Part shown: in pieces, positions 1,991 to 12,075 of the stretch
Layout of the letters: every line of letters starts with the position of its first letter
Numbering within the stretch: position 1 is the first letter of the stretch
Assembly (NCBI GenBank): GCA_024278345.1
Contig: JAJRTK010000214.1
Span: 1-16,104 of the forward strand
Direction of reading: 5' to 3'
Length of the DNA stretch: 16,104 nt
From: a bacterium
Lineage (GTDB): Bacteria; CSSED10-310; JAJRTK01
The notes under the pieces: model-generated
The model's input: the letters and a program-made list of their open reading frames with translations, nothing else
The model's database searches: none
What the model was told of the DNA's origin: nothing
Translations under genes and position numbers: made by a program

Positions 1991-3607
1991 ATGCAAATGT
2001 CCACCGACGACCTGGATCAAAGGGTCAAAAAACTTGTGGAAAGGTTCCAGAAGGAGTTTGGCGGGCAGCTCAATTTCCAGATTGTGCCGCCAGACACGGA
2101 GCCCCAATTCGAGCGGAAGCCTCCACGAACTCGCAGCACGAGCAGGATCGCGAGTTTCGACAAGACGCCTCGGCAGATCAAGCGGGAGCTCGACCGGTTC
2201 GTCATCGGTCAAGATGCCGCAAAGCGGGCGCTGGCCAACGCGGCATTCTACCATTACCGCCGGGCTCGAGCCGCCCTTGAAGGTAGAGAGGGCATCGAAG
2301 AGTACCAAAAGCCCAACGTGTTGATGGTGGGCAGCACGGGAGTTGGAAAAACCCTGCTTCTCAAGCGTCTTGCCAGGATCATTGGTGTCCCTTTCGTTCA
2401 GGGGGATGCCACGAAATTCTCCAAGACAGGTTACGTGGGAAAAGATATCGACAGCTTGGTCCGCCAGCTTGTCCGTGAAGCCAAGGACAATGTTGAGCTT
2501 GCGGAAGTGGGGATGATCTTCATCGACGAGATCGACAAGATCGGCGCCGCCCGAAATATGGTGGGCCACGACATTACCGGGACAGGGGTCCAAACTGAGC
2601 TTCTCAAGCCAATGGAAGAGACCGATGTCGATCTCATAGCCAGCGGCGATCCCGTCTCCTCTTTCCTGGGAATGGCGGCCATGCGTCGAGGGGCGCCGGC
2701 CGCCATCAACACGCGCCACATCCTGTTCATCGTTGGAGGCGCGTTTCCAGGTCTGGACGAGATCGTGCAAAAGCGGATTTCCAGGAAAACCATGGGGTTT
2801 GGTGGAACACTGCCCTCCATGAGCTCCAAAAGCGAATGGTTGAGGCACCTTGAAACCGAGGATTTCGTCGAATTCGGGCTTTTGGAAGAGCTGATGGGCC
2901 GTCTTCCCGTTCATGTCTCGCTGGACGACCTGTCCGTCGATGACCTCCTGGAAATCCTTGAAAAAAGCGAGTGCTCCATTCTCCGGCAGCACCAAGAGGA
3001 TCTGCGGCGCATCGGTGTGGCCCTCGAGTTCGAGCAAGAAGCGCTCCGGGAAATATGCGTTCGTGCCGAGCGCCACGGGACTGGGGCCAGAGGTCTTGTC
3101 ACCGAGTTCGAGCGCGTCCTTGGCAACTTCAAGTACGAGCTGCCGGATCACCGTCTGAAAAAGCTCGTCATCCATCGTAGCATCGTCGATGATCCGCATT
3201 CTGGGCTCTTGAACCTCCTGCTCCACGAGCCCATCCAAAGGTTTGTCCAAGAATTCGAGTTCGTCACGAAAGTCAAGCTCACTTTTGATCAGTCGGCCCT
3301 AGAGTTTTTGGGCCAAAGGTCGGAAGAGGGCAAGAACCCCATAGCTTTCTGCTGGGAACGCTTGAGCGGAGCGGACCGGGCCCTGAGGATGGTGGGGCGG
3401 AACAGCCTTGTGGTAACGCGGCAGATCCTCCAAAGCCCCATGAAACAAATCCTGGAGATCCTTGAGGCGGAACGTCCCTCCGTGCCACGCCGGAGACCGC
3501 TGTCAGACCCGAAAGTGCCGCCGGACCCAGAAGTTGCAGCCAGCACCGGCCCCGGCCCATCAGGAGCCTCCCCGATAGCCTGCCCCGCTCCTGAGCCCCC
3601 CATGTGA
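1991..3607 (+). CDS. Divergent ClpX-like AAA+ ATPase (no zinc domain, extended C-terminus)
   Basis: A 538-residue protein related to the unfoldase ClpX (E. coli about 424 residues). It lacks the N-terminal four-Cys zinc domain; instead there are about 55 polar residues. AAA+ motifs seen: Walker A GSTGVGKT (114-121), pore-1 loop GYVG (147-150), Walker B MIFIDEID (175-182), GGAF after sensor 1 (249-252), arginine finger in LMGRLPV (Arg304), and sensor 2 GARG (Arg367). The ClpP-docking loop IGF of ClpX appears as MGF (268-270), so ClpP contact is possible. The pore-2/RKH region used for ssrA-tag recognition differs (residues about 212-240, with no RKH). After residue 400 there is an extra roughly 90-residue segment resembling a second small AAA+ subdomain, then a Pro-rich tail. 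The start is ATG 1991 or 1997, with GAGG at 1983-1986. It opens the probable operon running to 6149. It may unfold a special substrate set; a ClpP-independent role is equally possible. Confidence 0.85.
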   Translation: MQMSTDDLDQRVKKLVERFQKEFGGQLNFQIVPPDTEPQFERKPPRTRSTSRIASFDKTPRQIKRELDRFVIGQDAAKRALANAAFYHYRRARAALEGREGIEEYQKPNVLMVGSTGVGKTLLLKRLARIIGVPFVQGDATKFSKTGYVGKDIDSLVRQLVREAKDNVELAEVGMIFIDEIDKIGAARNMVGHDITGTGVQTELLKPMEETDVDLIASGDPVSSFLGMAAMRRGAPAAINTRHILFIVGGAFPGLDEIVQKRISRKTMGFGGTLPSMSSKSEWLRHLETEDFVEFGLLEELMGRLPVHVSLDDLSVDDLLEILEKSECSILRQHQEDLRRIGVALEFEQEALREICVRAERHGTGARGLVTEFERVLGNFKYELPDHRLKKLVIHRSIVDDPHSGLLNLLLHEPIQRFVQEFEFVTKVKLTFDQSALEFLGQRSEEGKNPIAFCWERLSGADRALRMVGRNSLVVTRQILQSPMKQILEILEAERPSVPRRRPLSDPKVPPDPEVAASTGPGPSGASPIACPAPEPPM

Positions 3608-6444: not shown

Positions 6445-7068
6445 ATGGGTCTAACCAAAGGCACCGTCTCCTACCGGCGCTTCCGACTCCAGGACGATCT
6501 GCCCCTGAACAGTCCGGAGGTCTTTCTTGACTCCATCCAGAAGCAAGCCTTCCGACCCATCGATGGGGAGACTGACGAAGAGGTTTCCATCGGCTGGGTG
6601 GGGGTAAATGACCCGCTCAATACCGAGCTGAGACATGAAGACCTCTTTTTCGAGGATCTTGTCCTGCTCTCCATGCGGATCGACAAGAAGCGGGTCCCGG
6701 CGAAGATCTTGTCAGCCCACGTCCAGCGGGCCTTTCGGGACTACGCTCACGAAAACGACCGCGCTCTTTTGAGCCGGAGCGAGAAGGAGAATATCAAGGA
6801 GATGGTCCACACGCGGCTGCTCCGGCGCGTCCTTCCCTCCATGGCAACCTACGACATGGTCCTCGACCTCAGCGAACTCGAGGTGAGGTTCTGGTCCCTG
6901 AGCCAAAACGTCTGCATCGAATTCGTAGAGCTCTTTGGGATGACTTTCGGCCTGAACCTCTTACCCATGAGCTGTTATGGCCTCGCGGCGAAGCTTCTGG
7001 ACGAGGTTTCGGTGGAGCGCCTTGCCAACCTCCAGCCCAGCGCCTTTGTGCGCTCCCGAGGAAGATGA
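6445..7068 (+). CDS. RdgC-like recombination-associated protein, N-terminal part
   Basis: A 207-residue protein. Features of the RdgC family are an N-terminal beta region (TVSYRRFRLQDDLP), AFRPIDGETDEEVSIGWVGV (the FRP...GWV signature), an LSMRIDKKRVPAKIL strand-helix, then EKENIKEMVHTRLLRRVLPS, where RdgC has a KxEI/KEEV...LLPRAF-type helix, followed by YDMVLDLSELEVRFWSLSQN. RdgC in E. coli (about 303 residues) forms a dimeric ring around duplex DNA and restrains RecA. Here the frame closes early and the following frame supplies what looks like the rest of the longer, Geobacter-type variant. ATG 6445 has GGGAG at 6432-6436 with an eight-base spacer. Identification is from motif recall, not alignment; I leave the symbol blank because the relation to classical RdgC is distant. 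Confidence 0.7.
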   Translation: MGLTKGTVSYRRFRLQDDLPLNSPEVFLDSIQKQAFRPIDGETDEEVSIGWVGVNDPLNTELRHEDLFFEDLVLLSMRIDKKRVPAKILSAHVQRAFRDYAHENDRALLSRSEKENIKEMVHTRLLRRVLPSMATYDMVLDLSELEVRFWSLSQNVCIEFVELFGMTFGLNLLPMSCYGLAAKLLDEVSVERLANLQPSAFVRSRGR

Positions 7069-7592: not shown

Positions 7593-7665
7593 GATGGGAG
7601 GAATCGCACACAAGGGCGGCGTGAAGCAGGTTGAACAGCACTCGGGGTCAGAGGGCCGAAGTACT

Positions 7666-10569
7666 ATGGAACTTGGAACAACGTTCCCTAGACGAAACCG
7701 TCATCAAGATGCCGCGGCATCTGGTTTACCGTCTCCACCGGCATCCTCCTCGGAAGTTCTTGGACGTGGCTTCCGCGTGGGTTTGAAGCCCGCGCCAAGC
7801 GTGGTGTTGGGAATTGCCCTGTGTTGGCTGTTTCTAGGGGCCTGGTGCAAGTCAGCCGGCGCCTTTGAAGTCACCGGACTGGTTCTTCAGACAACCGATA
7901 CGTTCCTCCCAAGCTGCGATCCCAATGATCCCAACGACGTTCCTCTCCAGGGCGTCACGGTTCGGATCCGAGGCCGGACGGTCACCACGACCACGGGAAC
8001 CGACGGACGGTTCCACCTGCTCGACCCGGACTTCACGAAAAACGGCGCCACCATTGCCGCTGGCCTGGAAGGCAACGTGAACAACTCCCAGTTCGCTATC
8101 TGGCAGGCGGGGCAAACACCTCCCGACATCCTGATTTGTCTTCCCGTGATCCCCGCCGACAACCCGAGCTTCAAGCTGTCGGCAAGCGATCCCGACGCCT
8201 GCCAGATCTGCCACCACGATCCCGACGGCTCGGAACCGGTGACAATCCTGCAAGAATGGCGAAAGTCGCGTCACGCCAACGCCGGGACCAACTCCTGGGT
8301 GGAGGCCGCTCTGATTGACTACCGATCCCGGGTACCCGTGGAGCAAGCAGAGAGCCGATGCGCCGACTGCCACACGCCGGCCGCATTCGACCTGGGCGTC
8401 GCCCCGGGATCGATGGAGCTGACCGAGCTGGCGGCGGACTCTTTGGCGCGAAAACATGGAGTTCAGTGCGGCACCTGCCACCGGGTCCGGGAAGTGACGG
8501 CCAACATCAAGGCAATCAATTTCGACGGCGGCGCAATCATCAGCCACGCCCCGTTGCCGATCTTTGCCTTCGGCCCGTGGAACGATGTGACCGATATGGC
8601 GACATCCCCGGTTGCCGCCTTCACCGACAGTCTATTTTGCGCGCCCTGCCACGAGCACGATGCGCCGGCAATAGCCGGCTCGGCGGTCATTCCCGGTCAG
8701 ACGACCTACTCGGAATGGGAGCGCTGGCAACAGAGGCTTCCCGCCTCTTCCCCGCTCAAGGGTACACCTGACGGCACCTGCCAGGGATGCCACATGCCGG
8801 CGAAACCGCTGGATCAACCAAACGTGGCCTGTGCCTTCGCCGCGAAGCGAGACAGGGCATTTCCCGTACGGGCCCACACGGCGGCGGGCACCTGGCTGGG
8901 CCCGGGAGAGCTCTTGCCAAACGGTCGGTACTCTCTTCTGGACGGCGCCGCCGCCCTGGATCTCGAGGTGGCTCAGATCGCCACTGGCGAAATCGAAGTC
9001 TCCGCCCAACTGATGAACCTGGCAGCAGGCCACAAATTGCCGACGGGCTCCGGCATCCGCAATTTAATCCTGGTGATCGAGGCATTCGACGCCGCGGGCG
9101 TGGAGATTGCGCCGCTGGGTGATCCTGTCCGGACATCGTTCCTGCCCGACTGGACCGGTTCTTTTGGGACCATGGGCGCCGAGGACTTGGCCGGCAAAGC
9201 CGGAAAGGGCTACGCCAAAATCTTCTCCAGGGACAGGGCGGATTTCGGGAACCCCGACAAGCAGTGGGCGAACTCCATGGAAGCCCAGTGCGTGGTCCAG
9301 GACAGTGCCCTGGAAGGCGGCCTTTCCGACACGACCAGCGCGGTCTTTCCGGTCAATCCCGCAGCCGGCGCGGTGAAGATTCTGGCCCGGGTTCTGTACC
9401 GCCGCGCCTTTGCCGGCTTCTTTGGCCGGCTGGGCCTGCCTGAGACCGATGCACTGGGAAACCCCATCGCCGACTTCGAAGTGGCACGCCGAACGCTGGA
9501 AATCACCCCCGTGAGCAGCCCCGAACCCCTGCCGGGCGGCGTGGACCTCGATTTCCAGATGGACGCCGCTGGCGCGCAACTTGCCGACGGCCAGGTGGTG
9601 GACAATCTTTTCGCGGCGCTGGGTGTGACCTTTTCTTCTCTTTCTTCGAGCAACGGGCAATCCTGTACCACCGCGGACGGGAGCGCCTACGTGGTGAATG
9701 GTGGAGGCGGCGACCTGGTGCTGTCGCCAAAACCTGGTCTCGCCAGTCACAACGAATGCACCGGCGGGATCCTCCGTCTGGATTTCAGCCCTCCCGTGGG
9801 CCTGGTGCTCTTCGACGTAGAGGCTGACAACCCCGGAGCCGGATTCGAGATCCGAGCCATGGACGGCGATGGCAAAGAGATTGCCTTGTCCCGGATTTAT
9901 GACGACCCGGCCAACTGCCAAAGCCATCCGGCCGGAGCCACGATCTCCCTGGAGCTGGCCCACCGCCGAGTCTCCAGTGTGGAGGTCCGAGGTACCGTGA
10001 AAACGGCGGCTGACCAAGGGGTGGCCTGGACGATTCGCCGCCTTCGATACCGGTTTGACTCGTTCCACCCAGAATCGTCGGGACCGGTGGAGACGCCCAC
10101 GCCCACACCGACGCCAGCCCCTGGCAACCCGACGCCAACGCCCACCTCGACACCGACTCCGCCGGTTCCTGGTATTTCGGAGCCGGTGCTCGTCGGCCAG
10201 CAATCGGTCCTGGTGACCGCTGGCAATCCACCGGGCAGCCGGATCGAGATTCGCGCCTCTGGAGGTCCCTCGACTCTTCGGGTTCTGGGAGCGAGCACTG
10301 CCGGCGAAAACGGAGAAGCGGAGGTTCGTCTTCTGACGCCCCTGGCGGGTGGGGAGAGCATCTACCCGTTCAACCTGCGGACTCTTATGGAAGGGCCGGC
10401 CATCACGGTGATCGCCCCGACGCCCACCACAACCCCAAAACCGCTCCCCCTCCTGGAACAACCGGGGCAGCCCAGCCGAGGACTGGCGGTCCTTGCTCTT
10501 ATGGGCGCGTTGGTGGGAGTTTTCACGATGATCATTGGGAGAAAACGAAATGGCGCCAGTTTCATGTAA
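7666..10569 (+). CDS. Exported five-heme c-type cytochrome with Pro-Thr stalk and C-terminal anchor
   Basis: A 967-residue protein. A signal-like segment ([21 protein letters not shown], ending near residue 66) is followed by a carboxypeptidase-regulatory-like beta domain (FEVTGLVLQ to about residue 165). Five CXXCH heme sites follow: CQICH (Cys179), CADCH (232), CGTCH (268), CAPCH (325) and CQGCH (372). After these comes an AGHKLPTG motif domain as in other multiheme cytochrome families, then a jelly-roll-like domain (about 620-800), a stalk of repeated PTPTP (810-833), a second short beta domain, and a C-terminal membrane helix ([15 protein letters not shown]) with the basic tail IGRKRNG. 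The layout suggests an electron-transfer protein held at the cell envelope. ATG 7666 has GAGGG at 7651-7655; ATG 7594 is also in frame. Overlap with the next gene by 20 bases suggests shared expression. The redox partner is unknown. Confidence 0.85.
10093..10164 (+). repeat. Microrepeat encoding the Pro-Thr stalk
   Basis: Imperfect tandem copies of ACGCCCAC / CCGACGCCA encode a PTPTP-type linker inside the cytochrome gene. Such stalks are common between surface domains and a membrane anchor and are prone to length change. Confidence 0.7.
10537..10541 (+). promoter_or_regulatory. Ribosome binding site deciding the cysteine-rich gene start
   Basis: GGGAG lies eight bases before ATG 10550 and inside the last codons of the cytochrome gene. 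It favours ATG 10550 over the in-frame TTG at 10535 and implies coupled translation with the upstream gene. Confidence 0.6.
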
Positions 10570-11149
10570 ATGCAAATCGGGCTGCAAAACCAAGCGCTGC
10601 CGGTGCTTCAGTAAAATGGGCGCATGCCAAAACGACTGCAAATGCAGAGAATGCCTGAACCCGTACAATGAAGAGGAACTCGAAACAACTGTCTGCCGAT
10701 GCAAGAGCGGTTGCACATCGTACCGATGCAAGTGCCTAAAAGCTAGAAACGGCTGTGAAGAGCAGTGCAAGTGTAAGGGCTGTAAGAACCCTCTCAACGG
10801 TCTCGATACCAGCGACATGACCGACTGCATGGTGGACAATATCACCATCGTCGCGAACTTATCGGAGAGCGAACTGGACGAGAAGTGGGAGCTGCCATGC
10901 GAACACCACAAGATCCCTCTCCGAAAGTTGCTTCGGGGCTACGAGTGCAAGCAGTGCGAGGGGACGGAGTACTGGGCCTCCATCTGCTGGGGGACAGTGG
11001 TCCAGGACAACTGCACGTGGCACTGCGAGGTCTGCCACAAATGCCGGGACTGGCGGGAGTGGCACTGCGATGGGTGCGGGAGATGCACCTACGGGATTTC
11101 ATTGCCTTGCGATAGGTGCGGCGACCGGAAATACGACTTCTTTTTTTAG
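10550..11149 (+). CDS. Cysteine-rich protein with two CXC (tesmin/TSO1/MSL2-like) modules and a CTCHY-like half
   Basis: A 199-residue cytoplasmic-looking protein without signal peptide. Residues 6-35 and 49-78 are two modules with exactly the same nine-cysteine spacing, C-x-C-x3-C-x4-C-x-C-x6-C-x3-C-x-C-x2-C, each ending in C(K/L)NP. This is close to the CXC domain of tesmin, TSO1, LIN54 and MSL2, in which nine Cys bind three zinc ions and contact DNA. The linker is acidic ([10 protein letters not shown]). Residues 117-190 hold another dense Cys/His array ([30 protein letters not shown]) that resembles the CTCHY zinc finger of RCHY1-type proteins. The gene overlaps the cytochrome by 20 bases and ends 17 bases before the hydrolase start. 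GC is 50% over 10561-10800 (120 of 240 counted) but 63% over 10921-11100. It may bind DNA, act as a zinc/metal store, or both. Family identity is from pattern only. Confidence 0.85.
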
Positions 11150-11166: not shown

Positions 11167-12075
11167 ATGACTTGGATCGGTTGGCTTCTGAAACGGCTGC
11201 TCATGGCCTATCTGCTTTGGGGAGGCCTTCTTTTTCTGCTCCAGCGCCGGATCTTGTTCCCCAAGCAGATGACTCCATCGCTGGAACAGCCCGGGCTCGG
11301 TGTCCGGGGCCTGGAACAGCTCTGGCGGCCAACGCCGGTCGGGCCCGTGGAAGCCTGGTTTCTTCCGGGTCATGGAGTTTCGGAGGCGCAGCCGGGACCG
11401 GCGGTTCTTTTCGCCCATGGCAACGCCGAGCTCATCGAGTATTGCGCCGATGAGATGAACGCCTACCGCCGGATGGGAATTAGCGTTCTCCTTCCGGAGT
11501 TTCGGGGGTATGGCCGCTCGGCCGGCCAGCCGTCGGAATCAGCCATCGTCATGGATTTTACCGGTTTCTACGACGATCTGGTCCGCCGCCCTGAAGTCGA
11601 TGCCAGCCGGATCGTGTTCCACGGCCGGTCCCTGGGCGGCGGAGTCGTCTGCAGCCTGGCGGCACGCCGGGAGCCGGCGGCCCTCATTCTCCAATCGACC
11701 TTTACAAGCGTCCGTAGCTTCGCCCACGGCTACCTCTTACCGGGCTTCCTGATCCGCGATCCCTTCGACAACCTCGATCACCTGAAAGCGCTGCGTTGCC
11801 CAATCTTCATCGCTCACGGAACCAGAGACTCGATGATCCCGTTTTCCCACGGGCAAAAGCTCTACGCGGCGGCTCAAGCTAGGCAACAAAACGACTCCCC
11901 CAACGCAGCACCCCCTTTCTCAATCCTCCTTGCCTACGACAGCGATCACAACGATTTTCCGGCAAATTCGCCTGCCTACTTCCAGGAGATCGAGGAATTC
12001 CTGCGAAAAGCAGATATTCTTCCGCGCCACGGGCCCCGGGCCAAAGGCTCGCCAACCCCAAAACCGCACTTCTAA
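11167..12075 (+). CDS. Membrane-anchored alpha/beta hydrolase (ABHD13/Bem46-like)
   Basis: A 302-residue serine hydrolase with an uncleaved N-terminal hydrophobic segment (residues about 4-25, LLMAYLLWGGLLFLLQRR). The fold markers are in order: oxyanion-site HGNAE (84-88), PEFRGYGRS, nucleophile elbow GRSLGG with Ser155, acid Asp221 in HGTRDSMIP, and catalytic His261 in YDSDHNDF. This set is typical of the Bem46/ABHD13/YfhR group, whose substrates are poorly known. ATG 11167 follows an AGGAGAGCAAGGAAAGG stretch that starts right at the stop of the cysteine-rich gene, so the two are probably cotranscribed. The C-terminal 25 residues (basic, Pro-rich) look unstructured. A repeat copy and a terminator for the opposing gene lie in the 242-base gap after it. 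Confidence 0.9.
   Translation: MTWIGWLLKRLLMAYLLWGGLLFLLQRRILFPKQMTPSLEQPGLGVRGLEQLWRPTPVGPVEAWFLPGHGVSEAQPGPAVLFAHGNAELIEYCADEMNAYRRMGISVLLPEFRGYGRSAGQPSESAIVMDFTGFYDDLVRRPEVDASRIVFHGRSLGGGVVCSLAARREPAALILQSTFTSVRSFAHGYLLPGFLIRDPFDNLDHLKALRCPIFIAHGTRDSMIPFSHGQKLYAAAQARQQNDSPNAAPPFSILLAYDSDHNDFPANSPAYFQEIEEFLRKADILPRHGPRAKGSPTPKPHF

Follow-up and report, generated by a model that had tools for sequence, protein, structure and literature searches.

The window analysed here is a stretch of 16,104 nucleotides of bacterial DNA, in which a forward-strand ORF of 600 nt (positions 10550–11149, stop codon included) begins with ATG and encodes a protein of 199 amino acid residues, 32 of which are cysteines. 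A probable Shine-Dalgarno sequence, GGGAGA, lies ahead of the ATG on the same strand (10537–10542). Immediately upstream, an ORF resembling a multihaem cytochrome, with c554/c7 matches (7594–10569, forward strand), overlaps the start of the cysteine-rich gene by 20 nt, and downstream the ATG of an alpha/beta-hydrolase ORF (11168–12075, forward strand) is found 18 nt past the stop codon; the cysteine-rich gene and the hydrolase gene probably form an operon. The GC3 of the cysteine-rich gene resembles that of its neighbours and thus does not indicate a recent foreign origin. No defence genes were found near it, and no match to PglZ was obtained in the genome. Elsewhere in the window we noted a short RdgC-like protein (6445–7068; 207 residues against a profile of 298 positions), a 175-residue ORF that overlaps and follows its gene and has no Pfam match, and a ClpX-like AAA+ ATPase ORF (1991–3607) with N- and C-termini that appear extended when judged by eye.

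A preliminary description of the locus had pointed out two segments (residues 6–35 and 49–78) with the same nine-cysteine spacing and C(K/L)NP ends, and had read the product as a CXC-type protein in a bacterium. The spacing (2,4,5,2,7,4,2,3) is indeed common to both modules, which share 15 of 32 residues. Module 1 (10565–10660, forward strand; residues 6–37) has cysteines at positions 6, 8, 12, 17, 19, 26, 30, 32 and 35, an arginine (Arg16) before Cys-4 and the ending CLNP; module 2 (10694–10792, forward strand; residues 49–81) has cysteines at positions 49, 51, 55, 60, 62, 69, 73, 75 and 78, Arg59 before Cys-4 and the ending CKNP. The linker between them (10661–10693, forward strand; residues 38–48), as read from the sequence, has no hinge of the RNPxAFxPK type. 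The ending CHCVGCKNP that had been attributed to the MSL2 CXC domain agrees with the PDB alignment, where MSL2 reads ...GCHCVGCKNPHK.

Profile searches support the core of that reading. The Pfam TCR/CXC model (PF03638) matches the window protein in two stretches with 29.8 bits (E 7e-7), and since this score exceeds the gathering cut-off of 23.5 the cysteine modules are not a chance pattern; both of them exceed the cut-off in a profile search of the whole genome. The Pfam MSL2-CXC model (PF16682) scores 21.3 bits, below its cut-off of 26.7. The Pfam scan returned CXC families only, with no RING finger, and NCBIfam and PHROGs profiles gave no match. Membership in a known bacterial metallothionein or zinc-ribbon family had been named among the outcomes that would speak against CXC; no such known family matches, and neither Pfam nor NCBIfam returned a metallothionein profile at E<=10. 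When the single protein was used as a phmmer query against the PDB nothing was retrieved, and a family profile was needed for matches.

Predicted fold, conserved arginine and C-terminal domain

AlphaFold2 (AF2) models were made without metals. The model of the window protein has pLDDT >90 over residues ~50–170 and is confident up to about residue 180, and module 1, which no homologue covers, is for that reason poorly modelled, with low confidence. Overlaid on DNA-bound structures, module 2 superposes with MSL2 (4rkh; Z 5.8, 1.7 Å over 41 residues, 42% identity) and with LIN54 (5fd3; Z 5.2, 1.5 Å over 37 residues, 43% identity), and it also matches the CXC domain of EZH2 (Z ~4, 2.0 Å over 39 residues); Foldseek E-values for the model are weak on their own. 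The predicted fold of module 2 is like that of known CXC structures. In a search of the PDB with the family profile, the top two matches were LIN54 (E 0.009) and MSL2 (E 0.04), both E-values being individually weak. From its nine cysteines, each CXC module is predicted to hold three zinc ions in a Zn3Cys9 cluster.

An arginine directly precedes Cys-4 in 45/45 modules scored in the window protein and its homologues, both window modules included, and it is the sole invariant non-cysteine residue within the cysteine cluster. LIN54 contacts the minor groove of DNA through Tyr536 and Tyr610, one tyrosine per CXC, and MSL2 does so by inserting an arginine (PMC4974476). In MSL2 the fourth cysteine is Cys544, and the residue just before it, Arg543, is solvent-exposed (PMC3447885). 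By this residue, the putative DNA-contact position of the family is MSL2-like (Arg) and not tesmin-like (Tyr). Because the family keeps an arginine where MSL2 has Arg543, which we take to be the residue inserted in the minor groove, MSL2-style minor-groove DNA binding is the likeliest function in the light of established knowledge of CXC domains.

The part of the protein that follows the modules was absent from the preliminary description and is equally conserved. This cysteine-rich domain (10805–11125, forward strand; residues 86–192, boundaries approximate), delimited by sequence conservation and predicted to be rich in strands, has a consensus that begins LPC..hKIPL..L..YeC..C...YW...C...VVQD..TWHCEv and ends sLPC..CG, and it contains the invariant signature CRDWREWHC (11042–11068, forward strand; residues 165–173). 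Its conserved Cys/His pairs are predicted to bind zinc. Modelled alone, the domain has no Foldseek match with E<=0.001; only ZDHHC5, ZCCHC4 and Pirh2 resemble it, at noise level (VIA Z 2.4–2.9), and a domain profile searched against the PDB gave chance-level matches only. The CXC modules are basic (+7 and +6) and the C-terminal domain is acidic (−8), which would fit one DNA-facing and one partner-facing part.

A rare, horizontally spread prokaryotic family

The CXC module has been described in the literature only from eukaryotic gene regulators. A first survey of 386 genomes with PF03638 yielded one further match, in a Nitrospinota metagenome-assembled genome (MAG), where the homologue has one CXC and 51% identity to the window protein over the shared part. 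Alignment of the two proteins revealed the second conserved region and was then used to scan genome contigs, which resulted in 42 family loci. The carriers belong to Desulfobacterota, Chloroflexota, Planctomycetota, Bacteroidota, Acidobacteriota, Nitrospinota and Proteobacteria among bacteria and to methane-oxidising (methanotrophic) archaea, and many of them are sediment MAGs. The window protein thus belongs to a genuine prokaryotic family and is not a single oddity.

Three fragments excepted, homologues are ~150–160 residues long and have a single CXC ahead of the C-terminal domain. The second module and C-terminus of the window protein align with the family, module 2 being the counterpart of the single CXC in all homologues. 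Two CXC modules are found in the window protein only, and the tandem is, as judged from the alignment, a duplication peculiar to it. The earlier reading of a tandem-CXC protein consequently holds for the window protein and does not extend to the family, where one CXC with a C-terminal cysteine domain is the norm. According to one publication (PMC3207858), prokaryotes lack proteins of the CHC (tandem CXC) type, a statement that fails for tandem CXC as such. We found no description of a prokaryotic CXC family in a partial search of the literature, and Pfam may already list bacterial matches.

At E<=10, PF03638 matches 37/38 family members and the MSL2-CXC profile matches 23 of the 38, and no Pfam metallothionein profile matches any of them. 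The cysteine pattern is identical in all 45 modules scored. Residues invariant in the 38 sequences, besides the cysteines, are Arg59, Asn80-Pro81, Pro116, Ser144 and Trp157-His158 (window numbering), together with the motifs DWREWH and TYG; Arg59 and Asn80-Pro81 lie in module 2. Bacterial and archaeal members maintain ~50% identity to each other. For pairs in which it could be estimated, dN/dS is 0.11–0.26, and the family is under purifying selection.

The distribution is patchy. In the groups tested, about 1–4% of the genomes sampled have the family: 6/149 in the order to which the Methanoperedens genome G391 belongs, 10/340 in one class of Desulfobacterota and 4/346 in one class of Chloroflexota. 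A survey of Bacteroidota with PF03638 missed a known carrier genome and is unusable as evidence of absence. Relatives were absent from phage and plasmid collections and from three viral-contig scans. In the family tree, archaeal copies cluster with one from Bacteroidia, a copy from Chromatiales is placed among those of Desulfobacteraceae, and the window copy groups with one binned as Kuenenia. These groupings suggest horizontal transfer, with the reservations that bins may be contaminated and that the window branch is long. Taken as a whole, the family is a rare, horizontally spread prokaryotic branch of the known CXC domain.

Defence operons, insertion sequences and ordinary neighbours

The CXC gene directly adjoins pglZ of BREX in 6/8 archaeal loci, which are close relatives and not independent cases. 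The gene order in one of them (L010) is pglX, Hypoth_ymh, AlbA_2, a gene for a 123-residue protein, CXC, PglZ (913 bits) and BrxL (1100 bits). A protein of ~120 residues (SAWFKKGATLSDKSARKEFGL...), for which no Pfam or PADLOC match was found, precedes CXC in all eight archaeal loci (L010:9609–9980, with counterparts in L029, L035, L039 and L081–L084), in one of them as a truncated form of 82 residues. Two archaeal copies keep this neighbour without adjacent BREX core genes. Corresponding BREX loci of relatives lack CXC and carry other genes, for example AlbA_2, in the slot upstream of pglZ, so that CXC and the ~120-residue protein look like a pair of optional cargo genes. In the order sampled around G391, PglZ is present in 5/6 genomes with CXC versus 32/149 overall (hypergeometric p 0.0018, uncorrected for kinship).

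Bacterial settings are more varied. A Wadjet-type operon from Bacteroidia (L085:6812–13221, the same as L038) has the order JetA, 76-residue ORF, JetB, CXC, JetC. Restriction, primase-helicase, AriA-like or defence-candidate genes lie nearby at L007, L016, L026, L032 and L037; bacterial neighbours include a primase-helicase operon, an AriA/GajA-like ATPase, an HsdR-like gene and a type II restriction enzyme. PADLOC matches of neighbours were picked by eye, and no enrichment is claimed for bacteria. A defence role is not general, because many bacterial copies adjoin ordinary genes (AtuA-like, LivF-like, SPFH-like, hypB/hypC and mnmA; a cytochrome in the window). At L018 (896–2134), two tandem CXC genes separate a hypB-like gene from a hypC-like gene, and the first CXC copy has palindromic repeats (CCCGCAAGTTTAGAACTTGCGGG) on its flanks.

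These settings raise the possibility that the family is a dedicated anti-phage accessory, in which the CXC gene would be functional cargo of defence operons, placed in the BREX slot or the gap between jetB and jetC, and its product would act as a DNA sensor or regulator. The pglZ adjacency, the co-occurrence with PglZ, the Jet gene order and the defence-type genes at the five bacterial loci all argue for this explanation, which we nevertheless regard as doubtful: many copies lie away from defence genes, PglZ is missing from the window genome and the BREX loci of close relatives do without CXC. Moreover, the CXC gene is absent from the published BREX gene sets that we found, and the words CXC and tesmin do not occur in the main text of a 2026 BREX survey (PMC12839542).

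The gene is also associated with insertion sequences. In the Eth-SRB2 genome, a 2.29-kb segment carrying CXC and an ISKra4-like transposase is present twice (L027:9906–12191 and L028:9906–12172). The block common to both copies runs from the left terminal repeat (GGGCGCAG) to the vicinity of CTGCACCC, with CXC placed between the left end (GGGCGCAGATAYTCTCATCTCCC) and the transposase, whose score is below the NCBIfam ISKra4 cut-off. Another Desulfobacteraceae genome (L031, from 1440) has an identical 23-nt left end ahead of its CXC gene, which brings the element to three copies in two genomes. Close to the L027 element there is a repeat of 7 nt, which we did not accept as a target duplication because it is offset by 2 nt and missing at L028. 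An IS66-like transposase adjoins CXC in three loci, and most loci have no transposase nearby. A simple search for 12-mer inverted repeats around all copies found no common ends, and with clear ends only in the ISKra4-like case a general transposon is not supported. In one genome the CXC gene occurs twice as an exact, bare unit of 529 bp in different surroundings (L009:9975–10503 and L014:2849–3377); an integron cassette was considered for this unit and dropped, as no convincing attC was found.

Fungal KDZ transposases carry CxC domains, and the prokaryotic protein might likewise be a selfish passenger or transposon accessory that aids the insertion sequence, for example by binding its ends, with the copies in operons being insertion relics without host function. 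Residence in the ISKra4-like element, the neighbouring IS66-like transposases and the bare ~0.5 kb copies are in line with this reading. We judge it unlikely, given that most loci lack a transposase, that archaeal and other copies free of insertion sequences are intact and under purifying selection, and that the position upstream of pglZ is conserved in archaea.

Interpretation and comparison with known systems

Sediments are rich in metals and sulfide, and a protein with so many cysteines, encoded in many cases by sediment MAGs, could be a metallothionein-like buffer that stores or senses zinc or other soft metals and does not bind DNA. Tesmin itself was first named as a metallothionein-like protein (PMC7124961). 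Such a role seems quite improbable for a family with invariant residues other than cysteine (Arg59, Asn80-Pro81, DWREWH, TYG) and ~50% identity across bacteria and archaea, which metallothionein profiles leave unmatched at E<=10 and among whose neighbours no metal-efflux or metal-regulator genes were noticed. Recent transfer of a CXC gene from eukaryotes to bacteria, which the reported absence of CHC proteins from prokaryotes (PMC3207858) might suggest, is very hard to reconcile with about 40 divergent loci of one common architecture in many phyla and archaea, with a GC3 of the window gene that resembles that of its neighbours and with the missing tesmin tyrosine.

The best explanation, which we consider fairly probable, is that the CXC gene is a horizontally mobile accessory encoding a minor-groove DNA binder. 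Its CXC module would insert the invariant arginine before Cys-4 into the minor groove in the fashion of MSL2, and its C-terminal domain would contact a partner. Carried by insertion sequences, the gene would be dropped into operons, phage-defence operons included, where its product may help to locate or regulate DNA. A bolder version, which we hold to be improbable, makes the prokaryotic CXC protein a mobile DNA-targeting accessory of both anti-phage systems (BREX, Wadjet and restriction islands) and transposons, ancestral to the eukaryotic MSL2, LIN54 and pre-SET CXC domains.

CXC modules guide chromatin regulators such as the DREAM/MuvB complex (through LIN54) and the fly dosage-compensation complex (through MSL2). 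A conserved prokaryotic family with the MSL2-type arginine shows that the module has a greater age, or has been exchanged more widely, than was thought, and the small size of its members makes them suitable for tests of DNA reading by CXC. Since the gene occurs in BREX and Wadjet operons and within an insertion sequence, its product may be an accessory factor of genome conflict in prokaryotes that has gone unrecognised; of the leads obtained, the links to defence and to transposons are the most interesting.

With regard to BREX, the archaeal CXC gene, beside the gene for the ~120-residue protein, fills the accessory slot upstream of pglZ, whereas the window protein and the bacterial members are not BREX-encoded. 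The C-terminal domain resembles DHHC and CHY-type zinc domains (ZCCHC4, ZDHHC5, Pirh2) weakly, with Z of 2.4–3.4, scores at noise level that show no shared family. Module 2 belongs to the same cysteine cluster family as the CXC of EZH2 and the pre-SET CXC of SUV39; the SET domain of these proteins is missing and the window protein is not a histone methyltransferase.

The hinge between the two modules of CHC-family proteins is long and contains an RNPxAFxPK motif. The LIN54/tesmin/TSO1/CPP proteins (PF03638; 5fd3) have in common with the window protein a PF03638 match above the cut-off and the fold of module 2, and their two CXC modules are a feature that within our family the window protein alone displays. 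They differ from it in the minor-groove tyrosine before Cys-4, replaced by arginine in both window modules, in the hinge, for which the window protein has a 13-residue gap without RNPxAFxPK, and in lacking its extra C-terminal cysteine domain. The MSL2 CXC (PF16682; 4rkh, 2lua) shares the nine-cysteine order, the fold, the arginine directly before Cys-4, the asparagine after Cys-9 and the C-x-NP end, and is a single CXC, as in a typical family member. Its segment between Cys-2 and Cys-3, in contrast, has 11 residues (PMC3447885) versus 3 in the window protein, which also has no N-terminal RING finger, carries a different C-terminal domain and does not reach the MSL2-CXC cut-off of Pfam (21.3 vs 26.7 bits). 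The window protein is thus a CXC-domain protein by profile and predicted fold that is neither a tesmin/CPP protein, because the tyrosine and the hinge are missing, nor MSL2, because it has no RING finger and stays below that cut-off.
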